Shown here in pieces: positions 51,030-58,761 of a stretch of DNA of 64,000 nucleotides. Positions within the stretch are counted from its first letter, which is position 1; every line of letters starts with the position of its first letter. The stretch is from positions 992,001 through 1,056,000 of the forward strand of contig NZ_CP099546.1 in assembly GCF_023973145.1 (NCBI RefSeq). Direction: 5' to 3'. The notes under the pieces were generated by a model, which was given only the letters and a program-made list of their open reading frames with translations, had not been told where the DNA came from and made no database searches. Made by a program: the position numbers and the translations under genes. The stretch comes from Natronosalvus vescus. GTDB lineage: Archaea > Halobacteriota > Halobacteria > Halobacteriales > Natrialbaceae.

Positions 51030-51767
51030 TTACTCCCGATCGACGCTCGGGTGCATCGTCGGCCGATCGTCCAGCGGGTCGGCCAGGGCGTCGAGCATCG
51101 TCTCGCGCGCCCGTCGGTCGCGCTCGAGACGTTCGTCGTCGTCGATCTCCACACAGCCAGGGGGCACGTCCCGGTCACGACCCGTGAAGTAGCCTTCGGG
51201 GGCAACCCAGTCGTGGTAGAACGCGACGTCGGAATCGTGGATCACTGCCAGCGCGACTTTCGCGCCGTGGCCGGCGGCGACGATCGTCTGGTGTGGTTCG
51301 CCGGCGATTCGGCCCGCTGCGTAGACGCCATCGACGGCCGTTCGACCGCCGTCGTCGACCTGAAGCATGTACTTGCTGCCGCGCTGTTCCCGTCCGACGT
51401 CGAGGGGCACGAGGTACTCGCTGTCGGGCCAGGAGGCGGCGATCACGCGTCTGGCCTCGAGCGGCTCGCCCCCCTCGGTCTCGAGGACGAATCCGGCCTC
51501 GAGGTCGCCTTCGTCCCTGGGGGCGACGTGCGTGACTCGCCCGAGTTCGACGGTCGCCCCGGCCGTGTGGGCCTGCTCGCGGGCGAGTTGCAGGTACCGG
51601 CGGGCGTCGATCCCGTCCGGAAAGCCGGGGTAGTTCTCGAGGCTGGCGTTTCGGGCCAGGATCGACTCGCCGCCGTCGACGACGAGCGTGTCCAGGCCGT
51701 TCCGTGCGGTGAAGATCGATGCGGCGAGACCGGTGACCCCGCCACCGACGATACAGACGTCGCGCAT
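51030..51767 (-). CDS. FAD-dependent oxidoreductase, thioredoxin-reductase-like without a CxxC
   Basis: The 245-residue protein starts VCIVGGGVTGLAASIFTARNGLDTLVVDGGE, a FAD Rossmann motif, and has DGVYAAGRIAGEPHQTIVAAGHGAKVA, the second FAD motif of thioredoxin reductases. The inserted NADPH domain and the redox-active CxxC of thioredoxin reductase are absent, so it cannot reduce thioredoxin in the usual way. The C-terminal 60 residues are acidic and Arg-rich. It may be a ferredoxin- or NADPH-independent flavoprotein. It lies upstream of coaBC (66 bases apart) on the same strand. Confidence 0.87.
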   Translation of the reverse strand: MRDVCIVGGGVTGLAASIFTARNGLDTLVVDGGESILARNASLENYPGFPDGIDARRYLQLAREQAHTAGATVELGRVTHVAPRDEGDLEAGFVLETEGGEPLEARRVIAASWPDSEYLVPLDVGREQRGSKYMLQVDDGGRTAVDGVYAAGRIAGEPHQTIVAAGHGAKVALAVIHDSDVAFYHDWVAPEGYFTGRDRDVPPGCVEIDDDERLERDRRARETMLDALADPLDDRPTMHPSVDRE

Positions 51768-51821: not shown

Positions 51822-52235
51822 TTACTGCTCTCGATACGCATCCTCATCGCCGCCCTCACTTTCACGCTCGCGTTCCCGCGGCGGGTGCCTGTCGCTCGCC
51901 GGCGTTCTCGCTCGAGCGTGGCTGTGTGGGCGCGTCGACGGATGGACGGGGTCGTCTCGTTCCGTATCGATTCGCGGAGACGGTTTCCTCGAGTCCTCGT
52001 CGCGGTGGCCGTACTGTCGCCGTTCGACCGCCCGCGCACGTCGGTTCGTGTCCCACTCCTGAAACAGCCCGTAGTCGGTCATCGTCTCCATGCCGGCGAT
52101 GGCCGCCGAGAGTTTGATCCCGATCAGTGGAATATCGGCGACGGAGACGATCACGTCCGCACGGATGATCGCACCATCGCGCAGGAGGACATCGATGACG
52201 TCGACGATCGCGTCGTCGGATTTCTTCGGTTTCAT
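51822..52235 (-). CDS. gvpM: gas vesicle protein GvpM with a long C-terminal extension
   Basis: Residues 1-65 match GvpA-like GvpM: MKPKKSDDAIVDVIDVLLRDGAIIRADVIVSVADIPLIGIKLSAAIAGMETMTDYG. GvpM is a minor GvpA homologue needed for gas vesicle nucleation in halobacteria. Known halobacterial GvpM is about 84 residues; this one has 137. The extra part is Arg-, His- and Asp-rich and looks disordered. It is the last gene of the operon and overlaps the gvpL stop by 4 bases. Confidence 0.9.
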   Translation of the reverse strand: MKPKKSDDAIVDVIDVLLRDGAIIRADVIVSVADIPLIGIKLSAAIAGMETMTDYGLFQEWDTNRRARAVERRQYGHRDEDSRKPSPRIDTERDDPVHPSTRPHSHARARTPASDRHPPRERERESEGGDEDAYREQ

Positions 52236-53173
52236 CGGTTGGCGTCCCGTTGATCGTCACCGAACGTGGGGGCGAACGAGTACGGCGGCCACGGGCCGGT
52301 AAATCGCACCTCGAACCCCGGTTCGGCGGCGATCTCATCGAGCACTGACCCGATCGCCTCTTCGTCGGCCTCGCGGGCCATGACGGTGAGCCGACACAGT
52401 CGCTCGCCGGCGTCCGACCGATCGAATTCCCCGCCGAGATCGACCGAGGTTCGGCGCTCGAGTCGCCGCTGCTCACGGGTGCAGTCCTCGAGTTGCGTTT
52501 GCAGCCTGTTGGTCACGTTCTCCCGCCGGTGTTGGCGAAGCGTCTTCACTCGCTGATCGACCTGTTTCCGCAGGAGGAACGCCTCGCCCTCCGACGCCGT
52601 CTCGATCCGGTCGCGCAGGCTTTTGAGTTCATCGTCCCCCTCGAGTAGCGTCTTCTCGTCCGGCGGCTCCCGCTCGATCACGTCGATCCGGTACTCCCAG
52701 TGGCCGCGGAGATCCGCAAGCGTCGACTCGAGGCGGTCGCGCTCCTCTCGGAGCCAGCCGCGAACGGTGTCGTCGTCGCCGCGGATGATGGTGTCGAACT
52801 GGAACGGCAGTGGCGTACCGAAGGCGTCCGCCGCCCGGTCGATGACCGTCTGATGGCGAACCAGCCAGCGTTTGACCTCGGCGAGGTCGGCAGAATCGTA
52901 CAACTCCTCACACGGGTGGACGACGGCCGCTATCGAGGCGTTCTCGAGGCGGACGAGGGAGACTGGTTCGTCGTCGATTCCAGTGGTCGAGAACGAAGCG
53001 TCATCGTCATCGCCGAGACTGACCACACAGTAAACGTATCGGCCATCCTCGAAGGTGACTCTCGAGTCGTCGTTATCGGCTGGTGTCGTGTTACCATCCC
53101 CGACTGGCGAGTTGTCGTCATCGCCTGGTTCCAGGGGGTCGCCGTCATCGGTCGTCGTGGAGTCACTACTCAT
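52232..53173 (-). CDS. gvpL: gas vesicle protein GvpL (GvpF/L family)
   Basis: This is a 313-residue protein. A 45-residue acidic N-terminus is followed by the GvpF/L fold: GRYVYCVVSL, ASIAAVVHPCEELYD, VKRWLVRHQTVIDRAADAFGTPLPFQFDTII, a charged helical arm (about residues 190-250), and FEVRFTGPWPPYSFAPTF at the end. GvpL acts as a scaffold that contacts other minor Gvp proteins. An ATG at 53179 is an alternative. The start overlaps the gvpK stop. Confidence 0.93.
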   Translation of the reverse strand: MSSDSTTTDDGDPLEPGDDDNSPVGDGNTTPADNDDSRVTFEDGRYVYCVVSLGDDDDASFSTTGIDDEPVSLVRLENASIAAVVHPCEELYDSADLAEVKRWLVRHQTVIDRAADAFGTPLPFQFDTIIRGDDDTVRGWLREERDRLESTLADLRGHWEYRIDVIEREPPDEKTLLEGDDELKSLRDRIETASEGEAFLLRKQVDQRVKTLRQHRRENVTNRLQTQLEDCTREQRRLERRTSVDLGGEFDRSDAGERLCRLTVMAREADEEAIGSVLDEIAAEPGFEVRFTGPWPPYSFAPTFGDDQRDANR

Positions 53174-53513
53174 CGTCATCACCACCGATCGTTGCGTACC
53201 CTGGCCGATCGAGTTCGTCGGCATCGACGTCGAGTCTGGCGATCGCATCCTCCACTAGCCCGTCGAGCTCCATCCGGAGGTCGTCGACGCCGTCTTCGAT
53301 CCCCTCGTCGGCTTTGAGCTGTTCGATCTCGGCCTCGATCGCCGCAAGCTGACGACCCAGCCGGTCGACCTCCTCCGCGGAGAGCTTCGGCGAGTCCATC
53401 CGCCGGACGGCCTCCCGTTCCATCGCCTCGAGGAGGAGTTCGACGACCGTGATGACGAGCGTCATCAGCCCCTGGCGGGCGTCGTCACCCTCGCCGACAT
53501 TGATCCTGGTCAC
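53166..53513 (-). CDS. gvpK: gas vesicle protein GvpK
   Basis: The 115-residue protein reads ARQGLMTLVITVVELLLEAMEREAVRRMDSPKLSAEEVDRLGRQLAAIEAEIEQLK, which is the GvpK signature. Length and pattern are normal. GvpK is an essential minor protein in gas vesicle assembly. It overlaps the gvpJ stop by 4 bases. Confidence 0.94.
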   Translation of the reverse strand: MTRINVGEGDDARQGLMTLVITVVELLLEAMEREAVRRMDSPKLSAEEVDRLGRQLAAIEAEIEQLKADEGIEDGVDDLRMELDGLVEDAIARLDVDADELDRPGYATIGGDDDE

Positions 53514-54031
53514 GCGCTTTCACCATCGGCTTTGGCTGTCTCGGCAGGTGCTTCGTCGTTCGTTTCGTTCGACTCGGACTCATCGACCATCTCGTCGCTC
53601 GAGTCGTGCTGGTGGCAGAATCCGTCGTCTTTCGCCGGGCGCGAGCACCGTTCACCCGACGCCGTGAGCGCCTTGCATTGGTCGGTAGTCTGTGATTGAG
53701 CTTCAGCGTCCTCGTCACCGCCTCCGTCGTCCGTCAAGTTGACCCCTTGAGTGGGGGCGATCGGCGGGGCCGGCCGCTCCATCTCGGCGAGCTCGGGATC
53801 GCCGGCCGCCTCGGCGACACGGCGCATATCCGTCCCCTCGGGGAACTCGAGCCCGTATTTTGCGGCCGTCTCGAAGGAGGCGATCGCCGCTCGAATCTGG
53901 ATGCCGAGCAACTGGGTGTCGCCGATCGAGACGGCGATGTCGGCGTTGATAACGATGCCTTTGTCGAGCAGGAGTTCGACGACTTCGGCGAGGTCGGCCT
54001 GCTGTCGACTCGGCTGGACGGCGTCCACCAT
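53510..54031 (-). CDS. gvpJ: gas vesicle protein GvpJ with a C-terminal zinc-binding-like motif
   Basis: Residues 1-65 are GvpA-like: DLAEVVELLLDKGIVINADIAVSIGDTQLLGIQIRAAIASFETAAKYGLEFP, as in GvpJ. The rest is a tail of about 105 residues with acidic low complexity and a Cys/His cluster: Cys119, Cys129, Cys139 and His142 in the pattern CKALTASGERC...GFCHQH. Known GvpJ proteins are near 100-115 residues, so this tail is an addition. It overlaps the upstream stop by one base. Confidence 0.9.
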   Translation of the reverse strand: MVDAVQPSRQQADLAEVVELLLDKGIVINADIAVSIGDTQLLGIQIRAAIASFETAAKYGLEFPEGTDMRRVAEAAGDPELAEMERPAPPIAPTQGVNLTDDGGGDEDAEAQSQTTDQCKALTASGERCSRPAKDDGFCHQHDSSDEMVDESESNETNDEAPAETAKADGESA

Positions 54032-54966
54032 CAGCGCTCACCCCGCCGCTTGCGTTCACGTTCGATCTCGAACCGCCTCCCGTAGATCCGCCGTCGGGAT
54101 GGAGCGGTCGACAATCGCACCTGCTGGGGTACCGTCGAGTACCGGGCGTCGCTGCCCAGGTCGGCGCGACCGACCGGCATCGTCGAGGCGGCCGTCGGAT
54201 TGCGCGAGTTCGTCCCGCGATCCGTCCGTCGCATCCGTTCGCGGTTCCACTCGTAGAGGTCTTCGAATTCCTCGTGGGCCTCGAGGAGTGCGTCTCGAAC
54301 GCCGTCGATTCCACGCATTGCGCCCTGCTGGATCGCCACCTGGACGTACTCCGGATCCTCCAGGACGTCGACGTCCATCCTCTCGAACGTTTCCTCGGGT
54401 TCGAAGTCCATCCCCGACTCGTCACCCATGAGACCGTCGTCGTCGGTAACCGCCGACACCGCCGATCCGACCAGCGAATCGTCGTCGCCGACGTCGTCGA
54501 TCGTGTCCGACAGCTCCGCCCCTGCATCCAGGATGTCGCCGAACTCGCTCGCGTTCCACATTCCGACGAGTTCGAGTGCGTCGAGCACCGCACCGAAGTC
54601 GATCGCCTCGCTCGGATCTCGTTCCCGTAGCGCCTCCGGGATATCGCCCGTTTCTATCGTCTCGAGTAACTCCTCGAGATCGACGGCATCGGTCAATTCC
54701 CCGAGGTCGACCGTCTCGAGGAACGTCGTTAGCACCGATGCGATGTCGGCAAGCGCATCGAAGTTCTCACGCACCGCCTCGCGTTCGTCGCTCTCGAGCG
54801 CGTCGATCGACTCGACGTCCTCGAGCAGTTCTTCGAGTCCGGAGAGCGCGGTCTTCCCGGCGTTGATGGCGTCGTCGATATCGATCTCTTCGAGAGCGTC
54901 GGTGGCGTCTTCCCCTTCGAGATCGAAATCCACGCTCGCGACCTCGAGTTCGTCGTCGTCACTCAT
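54031..54966 (-). CDS. gvpI: protein in the GvpI position, with long acidic helical N-terminus and basic C-terminus
   Basis: The 311-residue protein lies between gvpH and gvpJ, where gvpI is found in halobacteria. Residues 1-210 are acidic and helical (INAGKTALSGLEELLEDVESIDALESDEREAVRENFDAL; LVGMWNASEFGDILDAGAELSDTIDD). Residues 245-311 are basic and end RRRIYGRRFEIERERKRRGER, which recalls the basic GvpI. GvpI proper is about 144 residues, so this may be a fusion or a replacement. The assignment rests mainly on position. It overlaps gvpH by 8 bases. Confidence 0.6.
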   Translation of the reverse strand: MSDDDELEVASVDFDLEGEDATDALEEIDIDDAINAGKTALSGLEELLEDVESIDALESDEREAVRENFDALADIASVLTTFLETVDLGELTDAVDLEELLETIETGDIPEALRERDPSEAIDFGAVLDALELVGMWNASEFGDILDAGAELSDTIDDVGDDDSLVGSAVSAVTDDDGLMGDESGMDFEPEETFERMDVDVLEDPEYVQVAIQQGAMRGIDGVRDALLEAHEEFEDLYEWNRERMRRTDRGTNSRNPTAASTMPVGRADLGSDARYSTVPQQVRLSTAPSRRRIYGRRFEIERERKRRGER

Positions 54967-55663
54967 CGGACTCACCTCCGGTATCGGCTGCCCCGGGCCT
55001 GGACTCAGACTCTGCCTCGCTCGAAGTCGTGTTGTCGTCTCGCGCTCGTGTCGTCGAATCGGTATCGACCCGGTCACCTCGATCGTCGTCCGCTCTCCGC
55101 ACCACCACCGTGAGCACGTCGTTGTTTATCGCCGCGGTTTCTGTCGTCTCCGACCACGGAATCTCGACGCGCTCGAGTTCGGTCGTCCCGACGGCGACCA
55201 CAAGACTGCCATTTTCAACCCCGACCCGAACGTCTCCGGGATCGACGGTCGATAGATCGGCGACGATCTCGAGTTCGTCGTCGTAGCGATTGACGGTCAC
55301 ATCGACAGCAGGCTCGTTTTCTCGAATCCGTCGACGTCGAGGATGACGCTCGAACCCTCTGTCGTTTTCAGACTCGTGATCGCCGACGGCTGACTCGAGT
55401 GGATTCATCCGAACGTCCAGATCGACGTCGAACGACGATCGGTCGGAATCTGCCTCGTAGCGGTTCTCCGTGTACGGGTTCTGGTGGTCGCCCGGGATCC
55501 CCCGCCGTCGCTGTGGCCGACCACGTCCGGTGCTCGCGTCGTCGATCGCCTCGAACAGCCGGAACAGTTGTGAGATGATGCCGCCGGGTCGATCGGTACG
55601 CTCGTCGTCCGGCGGTTCCTCTGCCCCATTCGATTCGCCCGGGTCATGTGGCGGATCTACCAT
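54959..55663 (-). CDS. gvpH: gas vesicle protein GvpH (Hsp20-like)
   Basis: This is a 234-residue protein. The N-terminal 80 residues are polar with GIISQLFRLFEAIDDAS. The core (about 120-200) is Hsp20/alpha-crystallin-like: PAVDVTVNRYDDELEIVADLSTVDPGDVRVGVENGSLVVAV and NNDVLTVVVRR. The tail is acidic. GvpH has chaperone-like behaviour towards gas vesicle proteins. The start overlaps the gvpG stop by one base. Confidence 0.88.
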   Translation of the reverse strand: MVDPPHDPGESNGAEEPPDDERTDRPGGIISQLFRLFEAIDDASTGRGRPQRRRGIPGDHQNPYTENRYEADSDRSSFDVDLDVRMNPLESAVGDHESENDRGFERHPRRRRIRENEPAVDVTVNRYDDELEIVADLSTVDPGDVRVGVENGSLVVAVGTTELERVEIPWSETTETAAINNDVLTVVVRRADDDRGDRVDTDSTTRARDDNTTSSEAESESRPGAADTGGESDE

Positions 55664-55941
55664 CAGGATCGCACCTCCACTCGGCCGCTCATAAGTTCCT
55701 CGTGTACCTCGCGAGCGATCTCGAGGTCGGCCTCGATGTCGGCTTTTCGTCGTTCGTACTCCGTCTCCGACCGCTCACCCAGTTCGTAGAGCAGCCGATT
55801 CTCCTTCAGTTCGTCCTCGAGCGCGTCGATGTCGTACAATTCGTCGAGCGCGAGCGTGTGCAGCGTCTCGACGAGGGTGACGAACGGCCGAAAGAGGAGG
55901 TCGTCGATGATGATCGCGAAGACGGTGAATAGCATAGTCAT
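55663..55941 (-). CDS. gvpG: gas vesicle protein GvpG
   Basis: The 92-residue protein has a hydrophobic start (MTMLFTVFAIIIDDLLFRPFVTLVETLHTLAL) and a charged helix (LKENRLLYELGERSETEYERRKADIEADL) typical of GvpG. Length is normal. Its ATG overlaps the gvpF stop by 4 bases. Confidence 0.92.
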   Translation of the reverse strand: MTMLFTVFAIIIDDLLFRPFVTLVETLHTLALDELYDIDALEDELKENRLLYELGERSETEYERRKADIEADLEIAREVHEELMSGRVEVRS

Positions 55942-56627
55942 CGTTGGGCTCCGATCTGGATGTCGACGAAATTGTACGGGGCGAACGGGCCCGAGTACTG
56001 GACGATCACGTCCTCGAGGGACTCCTCGAGCGAGCCGATCGCACTGTCAAACGCCTCTCGATCCGAGCGCTCGACCAGATACGACCGGTTGAGCAACAGT
56101 CGATCACTGAATCGACCGTTATCGACCTGTTCGACGGCTAGTGGGTCGAGTTCGTCCGCTACGAGGGATTCGACGTCGTCCTCGCCGACCGTCGCCTCCG
56201 GTTCGGTGACGAGTTTGACGCCGAGTTCGACGCGGCCGTCGATTTCGTGGAGCGTGCGTCTGAACGCACTGCGCCCACCACGGAGGACGTTCTTCAGTGC
56301 CCGCTCGCTCTCGAAGACCATTCCGAACCGCATCGGCACGATCGTTCGACCCCCATCGCTGGTCATGAGTGCTCTGAGCACCTCGTCGTGTCGTTTGGCG
56401 TCCTCGTCGGTCTGTTCGGGGTCGGTGACGTCGATGGGGGAAGCGAGGGCAGCGAGTCGCCCGTGTGTCACCGGGTAGATCTTCGACGCACCCCTGACGG
56501 CACCGTTCTCGAGTTTCAGGTCGTTCCCTTCTCCCTCACTTTCGCTCCCGTCCGGATCGACGTCGAAGGTCGTCGCGTCACTCGCGGCGACGATCCCGTA
56601 GACGTAGTGGTAACTCGCGTCGGTCAC
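55938..56627 (-). CDS. gvpF: gas vesicle protein GvpF (GvpF/L family)
   Basis: This is a 229-residue protein: YHYVYGIVAASDATTF, GRLAALASPIDVTDPEQTDEDAKRHDEVLRALMTSDGGRTIVPMRFGMVF, FRRTLHEIDGRVELGVKL, and YSGPFAPYNFVDIQIGA. These are all GvpF/L signatures. It is the first recognised gene of the operon. The start is the GTG at 56627, which has a perfect GGAGGT six bases upstream. GvpF contacts GvpA during gas vesicle nucleation, but gvpA is not in this window. Confidence 0.94.
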   Translation of the reverse strand: MTDASYHYVYGIVAASDATTFDVDPDGSESEGEGNDLKLENGAVRGASKIYPVTHGRLAALASPIDVTDPEQTDEDAKRHDEVLRALMTSDGGRTIVPMRFGMVFESERALKNVLRGGRSAFRRTLHEIDGRVELGVKLVTEPEATVGEDDVESLVADELDPLAVEQVDNGRFSDRLLLNRSYLVERSDREAFDSAIGSLEESLEDVIVQYSGPFAPYNFVDIQIGAQR

Positions 56628-56639: not shown

Positions 56640-56960
56640 GATATCTGTTCGGTCGCAGCAGCTGTAGCCAGGTCACCAGCGACTGGTCGGCAAGCACCTG
56701 CAGGACTCTCGTGTAACTGTAGCGACCCCAACCGTCCGTCGACCGTCGGGTGCCGCCGATGTGGACTCCGTTTCATAGTGGGCCTCCCTCGAGTTCGTCG
56801 CGTTCGAGTTCGATGCGTGTGCGAGTGCGAGTGTACACGCGATAACGACGGCGTGAACCACCACTCGGTCGTCGACACGTTCAATGGGGGCGCGGGTTAT
56901 CGTGGTGCTTGCAGATGCAGTCTCCGTTCACACACGCCGAAGGGGAGACAGCCAGCAGAT

Positions 56961-57028: not shown

Positions 57029-57036
57029 CCTTAATG
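57029..57036 (+). promoter_or_regulatory. TATA box of the methylmalonyl-CoA mutase gene
   Basis: The sequence ccttaatg lies 25-32 bases before the ATG at 57061. It overlaps the upstream in-frame ATG at 57034, which argues against that start. Confidence 0.55.
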
Positions 57037-57060
57037 GAACGTCCAGCAAAAATTACGATC

Positions 57061-58761
57061 ATGTACGACGATGAGGATCTCGAGACGATCCGCTCCGCCG
57101 AGTCCGAGTGGGAGGAGGAAACCCTCGAGCCAGTCCTCGACCGATTCGGTGAACGCAAGGATCGATTCGCGACGATCTCGAACCTCGAGGTCAATCGGCT
57201 GTACACGCCCGACGACGTCGAGGGGCTCGATTTCCTCGAGGATCTGGGCTTCCCCGGCGAGGAACCCTACACGCGAGGGCCGTACCCGACGATGTATCGG
57301 GGTCGGACGTGGACGATGCGCCAGTTCGCCGGCTTCGGGACGGCCGAAGAGACCAACGAGCGGTTCCACTATCTGATCGAGCAGGGCCAGACCGGGCTGT
57401 CGACGGCGTTCGACATGCCCACGCTGATGGGACTCGATTCGGACGACCCGATGAGCGACGGCGAGGTCGGCAGGGAAGGCGTCGCCGTCGACACCCTGCG
57501 AGACATGGAGATCCTCTTCGACGGCATCGACGTCGACGATGTCTCCACGAGTTTCACGATCAACCCCTCCGCACCCGTCATCTACGCGATGTACGTCGCC
57601 CTGGCCGACCAGCAGGGCGTCCCGCGCGAACGGATCCGCGGCACCCTCCAGAACGACATGTTCAAGGAGTTCATCGCCCAGAAGGAGTGGGTGATCCCGC
57701 CGGATCCGTCGCTCAAACTCGTCACCGACGTCGTCGAGTTCAGCGCCGAGGAGACGCCAAAGTTCCACCCCATTTCGGTCTCGGGCTATCACATCCGCGA
57801 GGCCGGCTCGACTGCCGTCCAGGAACTCGCCTTCACGCTCGCCGACGGCTTCGGCTACGTCGAAGACGCCATCGAGCGCGGCCTCGAGGTCGACGAGTTC
57901 GCCCCTCGGCTGTCGTTCTTCTTCAACTGTCACAACTCCTTCTTCGAGGAGATCGCCAAGTTCCGCGCGGCCCGCCGGATCTATGCCCGCGTGATGGACG
58001 AGTGGTACGACGCCGAGCGGGCGGAGTCCAAACGGCTGAAGTTCCACACGCAAACGGCCGGCCAGTCGCTGACGGCCCAGCAGCCGATCAATAACGTCGC
58101 TCGGGTGACGATGCAGGCGCTGGCGGGCGTCCTCGGGGGCACGCAGTCGCTGCACACCAACAGCTTCGACGAGGCGCTCGCCCTGCCCAGCGAGAAGGCC
58201 GTCCGGGTCGCCCTGCGCACCCAGCAGATAATCGCCGAGGAGTCCGGTGCTGCGGACATCGTCGATCCGCTGGGCGGGTCGTTCGCCGTCGAGGCGCTCA
58301 CGAACGAGACGGAAAAACGAGCCATGCGCTACATCGAGCACATCCGCGACCTCGGTGACGGCTCGGTTCGCGACGGCATCCTCCAGGGGATCGACGACGG
58401 CTACTTCCTCCGGGAGATCCAGGAGGCCTCCTACGAGTACCAGGAACGCGTCGAACGCGAGGAGGAGGTCGTCGTCGGCGTCAACAAGTTCACGATCGAC
58501 GAGGACACTTCCCCCGACATCCTCCACGTCGACGAAACTACCCAGGATCGCCAGCTGAACCGTCTCGAGCAGACGAAAGCCGACCGCGACGACGAAGCCG
58601 TTGAGGCGACGCTGTCGGCGCTCGAGGAGGCGATCGGAAACGACGAGAACACCATTCCATACATCGTCGACGCGGTCAAAGCCTACGCGACGATGGGCGA
58701 GATCATGCAGGTGTTCGAACAGCAGTACGGCGCCTACACCGAACAGATAGGGCTCGCCTAG
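57061..58761 (+). CDS. mcm: methylmalonyl-CoA mutase, large (catalytic) subunit
   Basis: The 566-residue TIM-barrel enzyme interconverts methylmalonyl-CoA and succinyl-CoA with adenosylcobalamin, a step of propionyl-CoA use. Signatures are YTRGPYPTMYRGRTWTMRQFAGFGTAEETNERF, GQTGLSTAFDMPTLMGLDSDDP, HPISVSGYHIREAGSTAVQELAFTLADG and FHTQTAGQSLTAQQPINNV. The B12-binding domain is not in this protein; archaea encode it as a separate small subunit, which is not in the window. The start at 57061 is chosen by the TATA spacing and the MYDDEDLETIR start typical of the family. Confidence 0.96.
   Translation: MYDDEDLETIRSAESEWEEETLEPVLDRFGERKDRFATISNLEVNRLYTPDDVEGLDFLEDLGFPGEEPYTRGPYPTMYRGRTWTMRQFAGFGTAEETNERFHYLIEQGQTGLSTAFDMPTLMGLDSDDPMSDGEVGREGVAVDTLRDMEILFDGIDVDDVSTSFTINPSAPVIYAMYVALADQQGVPRERIRGTLQNDMFKEFIAQKEWVIPPDPSLKLVTDVVEFSAEETPKFHPISVSGYHIREAGSTAVQELAFTLADGFGYVEDAIERGLEVDEFAPRLSFFFNCHNSFFEEIAKFRAARRIYARVMDEWYDAERAESKRLKFHTQTAGQSLTAQQPINNVARVTMQALAGVLGGTQSLHTNSFDEALALPSEKAVRVALRTQQIIAEESGAADIVDPLGGSFAVEALTNETEKRAMRYIEHIRDLGDGSVRDGILQGIDDGYFLREIQEASYEYQERVEREEEVVVGVNKFTIDEDTSPDILHVDETTQDRQLNRLEQTKADRDDEAVEATLSALEEAIGNDENTIPYIVDAVKAYATMGEIMQVFEQQYGAYTEQIGLA

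Follow-up and report, generated by a model that had tools for sequence, protein, structure and literature searches.

We put at roughly 0.87 the probability that the eight genes gvpF-G-H-I-J-K-L-M of Natronosalvus vescus are the accessory half of a haloarchaeal gas-vesicle system of the ordinary kind, divided by a genome rearrangement that fell between the promoters of gvpF and gvpA in an originally divergent cluster. All eight were found on the minus strand at positions 51822-56627 of the window, the 64,000-nucleotide stretch of the chromosome that was analyzed, and none of gvpA, N, O, C, D or E lies beside them, as a preliminary description made from the DNA letters had stated. The shell half, gvpA-gvpN-gvpO, is on the same chromosome 192 kb off, and each half has kept its own copy of an upstream element conserved in the family; in the scheme that we propose, a common regulator would read both copies. 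The F-M proteins would build the nucleation complex and GvpA would polymerize into the shell, assisted by N and O as in Halobacterium, and a Cys/His knuckle copied from GvpO would let GvpJ make a contact that is otherwise GvpO's. What the genome carries is a familiar system in an unusual, rearranged form and not a new structure. Its less ordinary parts are the shared element and the fusion of the knuckle onto GvpJ, and it is these that deserve specialist attention.

The two operons and their genes

Profile searches with NCBIfam and Pfam models name F, G, J, K, L and M, with halophile-specific models above their cut-offs for J (NF046090) and M (NF046091), and further matches for L (NF045778) and, above cut-off, for G (NF045779). 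The assignment of gvpH relies on a weak Hsp20-like match combined with its position between G and I and its conservation in relatives. No gas-vesicle family was matched by gvpI in the Pfam and NCBIfam searches, and the gene was assigned from its position and its conservation at the same place of the locus in relatives, with 30-58% identity; an N-terminal extension of GvpI has been reported for Natrialba magadii (PMC3403918). The natural starts of gvpI and gvpL are probably at 54966 and 53173, judging from the sequence. Given these starts, adjacent genes overlap by 1-8 bp, and the overlapping genes described earlier hold in that form, the longer listed open reading frames overlapping more. The flanking genes are methylmalonyl-CoA mutase and an FAD oxidoreductase by profile matches, as had been claimed (Table 1).

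Table 1. Features of the two gvp operons and their surroundings. Plain positions are those of the window; positions with the prefix C1 are those of the chromosome.
Feature	Position	Strand	Remarks
FAD oxidoreductase (flank)	51030..51767	-	Orthologue directly adjoins gvpA in same-genus MAG contig L051
gvpM	51822..52235	-	137 aa; NF046091 above cut-off
gvpL	52232..53173	-	ORF open to 53248; NF045778 1.2e-105
gvpK	53166..53513	-	115 aa; PF05121 7.7e-24
gvpJ	53510..54031	-	173 aa; NF046090 halo_gas_GvpJ above cut-off; PF00741
Extra Cys/His knuckle, DUF5763 / GvpO_arch_Nterm	53573..53686	-	On GvpJ C-terminal tail
gvpI	54031..54966	-	Long N-terminal extension; ORF open to 55077; no family match
gvpH	54959..55663	-	234 aa; Hsp20-like C-terminal part; NF041800 weak, below cut-off
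gvpG	55663..55941	-	92 aa; PF05120 1e-14; NF045779 above cut-off
gvpF	55938..56627	-	229 aa; PF06386 GvpL_GvpF 2.3e-41
Promoter element GCTTGCAGATGCAG	56907..56920 (C1:1048907)	+	280 bp upstream of gvpF
Methylmalonyl-CoA mutase (flank)	57034..58761	+	Adjoins gvpF-M also in G112, G113, G115
gvpA	C1:1240562-1240849	+	95 aa; PF00741 1.4e-15
gvpN	C1:1240859-1241923	+	TIGR02640, 318 bits, above cut-off
gvpO	ATG at ~C1:1241952 to 1242566	+	PF05800 2.7e-24

A six-frame search of the 3.84-Mb chromosome returned three matches to the Gas_vesicle family, namely J, M and one at C1:1240595. The last belongs to gvpA, which is followed in a row by gvpN and gvpO on the plus strand (C1:1240562-1242566) of the same chromosome as gvpF-M and is 96-97% identical to the gvpA of genus relatives. 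With the start of gvpF at C1:1048627, the starts of the two operons are 192 kb apart, in place of the adjacent divergent layout of an A-operon and an F-M operon. The preliminary description had allowed that gvpA might be elsewhere in the genome, and this proved correct, gvpA-N-O being under strong purifying selection. Adjacency of the operons is an arrangement and no functional requirement. In Haloferax volcanii transformants A, O, F, G, J, K, L and M are reported to be essential (PMC9372576), and all eight exist in the genome of the window.

Of a gvpACNO cluster elsewhere in the genome, named earlier as counting against a new role, A, N and O are present; gvpC is absent, as it is from the intact clusters of the family. 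No orthologue of gvpC, gvpD or gvpE was found genome-wide with protein queries from Halobacterium salinarum, which served as the positive control, the queries matching only generic ATPase and winged-helix proteins. Orthologues of the three were likewise not found in one Natrinema and one Natronorubrum with intact clusters. Published descriptions list 11 gvp genes, with C, D and E missing, for Natrialba magadii, Natrinema pellirubrum, Halopiger xanaduensis and others (PMC4390858, PMC3403918). Absence of the three genes is usual for Natrialbaceae, and they are not essential for the gas-vesicle system. The genome of the window shares with this 11-gene cluster the same A, N, O and F-M set and the long GvpI, and with Natrialbaceae loci the same element upstream of gvpA and gvpF, but differs from the 11-gene cluster in the distance between its operons and in the GvpO knuckle on its GvpJ. 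Compared with the p-vac and c-vac clusters of H. salinarum (gvpACNO and gvpDEFGHIJKLM), it has orthologous A, N, O, F, G, J, K, L and M, but no gvpC, D or E, and its halves are not adjacent.

Two observations concern the surroundings of gvpO. A CHY zinc-finger gene follows it (L004 11821-12411, C1:1242421-1243011) and is also found in G112, G113, G115, G117 and G034, making it a possible candidate for an extra member of the gvpA-N-O transcript. At loci L052, L060, L067, L077, L082, L085, L086, L087, L089 and L091-L097, gvpO comes after gvpA, and no gvpN was found within 10 kb with the GvpN of the window's genome as query.

Separation of the cluster in Natronosalvus and its relatives

Contiguous M-L-K-J-I-H-G-F|A clusters are the rule in the family and the two halves are nearly always adjacent, gvpF lying no more than 10 kb from gvpA at 72 of the 80 gvpA loci fetched by similarity. 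Some of the exceptions among the 80 are lone second gvpA copies in genomes with a full cluster elsewhere, Haloterrigena salina and Natronorubrum texcoconense being examples; others lie on short contigs, and others again are genuine splits. Within the window's GTDB genus, contiguous clusters are present in Natronosalvus hydrolyticus (G114) and in G116. On one contig, gvpA-N-O lies apart from gvpF-M by ~125 kb in G112, ~50 kb in G113 and ~125 kb in G115, and in all three gvpF-M has the window's mutase gene as its neighbour; in the metagenome-assembled genome G117 the two halves are on different contigs. An assembly artefact is an unlikely cause of the split, given three genomes of the same genus split on one contig with the same mutase neighbour. 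Halostagnicola sp. A-GB9-2 (L055/L174) is likewise split, and no mutase gene lies beside its gvpF in the stretch examined; because of this, separation of the gvp cluster probably occurred more than once. Like the genome of the window, all five of these genomes have the two operons apart and the element kept, but they differ from it in distances and neighbours.

Evidence on the breakpoints comes from G117 (L051/L144). There, the left flank of the window's operon, which runs from peptide transporter genes to the oxidoreductase and includes CoaBC, directly adjoins gvpA-N-O, beyond which lies the same right flank as at the gvpA-N-O locus of the window's genome. In the latter (G000), unlike G117, that left flank adjoins gvpM. 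Because the G117 contig joins the left flank, gvpA-N-O and its right flank, the operon edges are rearrangement breakpoints.

Lone gvpA copies without other gvp genes nearby were seen at L137 and L141 (G113 and G115), L037 and L046, those of G113 and G115 being 84-85% identical. G116, a metagenome-assembled genome, has two gvp regions (L143 and L142) with a stop codon within the gvpL match in each, and one of the regions may be decaying or the assembly may be faulty.

The shared upstream element, selective constraint and alternative readings

Across the 3.84-Mb genome there are three occurrences of the 14-bp word GCTTGCANNNGCAG, one upstream of gvpF and another upstream of gvpA. The copy upstream of gvpF reads, seen from that gene, CTGCATCTGCAAGC followed by ACCACGATAAC, and an identical copy of GCTTGCAGATGCAG is located at C1:1240503-1240516, 59 bp upstream of gvpA. 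The third (C1:3787407) is inside a coding frame that resembles ornithine cyclodeaminase, as identified by eye. Alignment of split and contiguous genomes revealed a conserved block upstream of gvpA, GCTTGCAGTCGCAG, followed in many genomes by CAAGCCGTGTT, which is positioned at -51 to -62 from the gvpA start codon across genera in surrounding DNA that has diverged. Contiguous clusters have a second copy in the F-A intergenic region, nearer gvpF, that reads CTGCGACTGCAAGCACCACGRTAAC seen from gvpF. The family-wide pattern is rare, with 0-8 matches per genome in 125 genomes, and of the 150 matches listed, 91 lie no more than 1.6 kb from a gvpA (60 of 72 genomes), the other 59 not being near gvpA. 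A reversed-pattern control gave mostly 20-60 matches per genome, but its dinucleotide make-up differs, and our argument is therefore the position beside gvpA and not this control.

Among split genomes with an intact upstream region, both copies are retained exactly in G112 and G115, and both are retained in G113 and Halostagnicola sp. A-GB9-2 with a single mismatch in one. The 14-bp element was not found at the solitary additional gvpA genes of G113 and G115 (L137/L141). A partial look-alike nearer gvpF, in the region of window position 56700, was too degenerate to claim. Given that both copies lie between gvpF and gvpA in contiguous clusters, the simplest account of the sequences would be that the cluster broke between the two, each operon leaving with its own copy. 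Coordinated expression of both halves would follow naturally, and the separated operons, each with the same short element, constitute a natural experiment that points to a control sequence. We found no paper on gvp promoters in Natrialbaceae within the open-licence literature. To our knowledge, GvpD and GvpE are the only known regulators, and they are missing from most haloarchaea with gas-vesicle genes.

Selective constraint was assessed by pairwise dN/dS against G112, G113 and G115 with the Nei-Gojobori method (own script). The ratio is 0.04-0.05 for gvpA, about 0.2 for gvpN and gvpO, and 0.17-0.42 for F-M; the comparison genes, mutase and CoaBC, give 0.11-0.15. The most constrained gvp gene is gvpA, H, I, L and F evolve fastest, and every gvp frame is open in the window's genome. 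With ratios well below 1, the gvp genes are by this measure maintained under purifying selection, a result that counts against decay and is silent on vesicle production. It bears on a reading in which the split cluster is a non-functional relic, its genes still readable and vesicles no longer made. The breaking up of the cluster and the gvpL matches with an internal stop in G116 are in keeping with such a relic, as are reports that no vesicles are made by several relatives possessing this 11-gene set (PMC4390858), which weigh on our own explanation too. However, the open frames, the low ratios of all gvp genes and the persistence of the upstream element beside each half in those split genomes that were examined make a relic improbable.

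The preliminary description had also raised the possibility that the F-M operon acts independently of gvpA, with GvpJ and GvpM forming a different, non-vesicle structure. J and M are GvpA paralogues for which assembly is possible in principle, their operon is physically separate from gvpA, and GvpJ carries an extra domain. Nevertheless, gvpA, N and O are present in the same genome, gvpA is the gene under the tightest constraint, and the same element precedes both halves; this suggestion of a new role found no support and we consider it very improbable. Accessory and shell halves of one rearranged system remain the preferred reading, against which can be set that the gvpF copy of the element is as far as 280 bp upstream and that H and I evolve fast. 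A different doubt concerns the element itself, which could be an inherited promoter sequence without regulatory meaning, the halves now being independently regulated. Both copies descend from one ancestral intergenic region, and the matches away from gvpA fit this view, whereas the nearly fixed position of the block across genera, in otherwise diverged intergenic DNA, and its absence from the solitary additional gvpA genes in G113 and G115 render it rather unlikely.

GvpJ and the GvpO knuckle

The acidic tail of GvpJ contains a knuckle, DUF5763, that NCBIfam models as the N-terminal domain of halophile GvpO. Its NF045806 scores are 72.7 bits in GvpJ and 73.8 bits in GvpO, against a cut-off of 52. 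The GvpO of the window's genome has this knuckle, whereas at the H. salinarum locus GvpO is 111 aa long and without it. A 124-bp tract at 53584-53707, overlapping the knuckle, is identical to gvpO of the same genome at 111 of 124 positions (90%), and the gvpJ tract aligns to gvpO with a score of 183 within its own genome and at most 111 with genus relatives. The paired tracts (53584-53707 and C1:1241955-1242078) are mutually inverted and 196 kb apart.

Searches with the knuckle returned no relative among solved structures at E values up to 1. Contacts have been described of GvpO with GvpA, N, F and L, and of GvpJ with GvpL and GvpA (PMC9372576 among the sources), and on the strength of these a docking role for the knuckle is a reasonable guess. 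Joining this to the element, one could tentatively picture a two-operon regulon, controlled through a gvp-specific element by a putative regulator that would replace GvpE and GvpD in Natrialbaceae, with the knuckle of GvpO and GvpJ as a docking module marking the same assembly site, a picture about which we are more doubtful than confident.

No knuckle was found in the GvpJ of G112, G113, G115 or G117, and that of Halostagnicola sp. A-GB9-2 is also without it. A similar, older-looking GvpJ fusion with a longer linker is present in another genus (G035/L061 and G037). The presence of the knuckle on GvpJ in two genera, combined with its absence from genus relatives, would mean either two or more separate acquisitions by GvpJ or a single one followed by loss or transfer. 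Its repeated passage from GvpO to GvpJ suggests a small module that can be moved between proteins of vesicle assembly.
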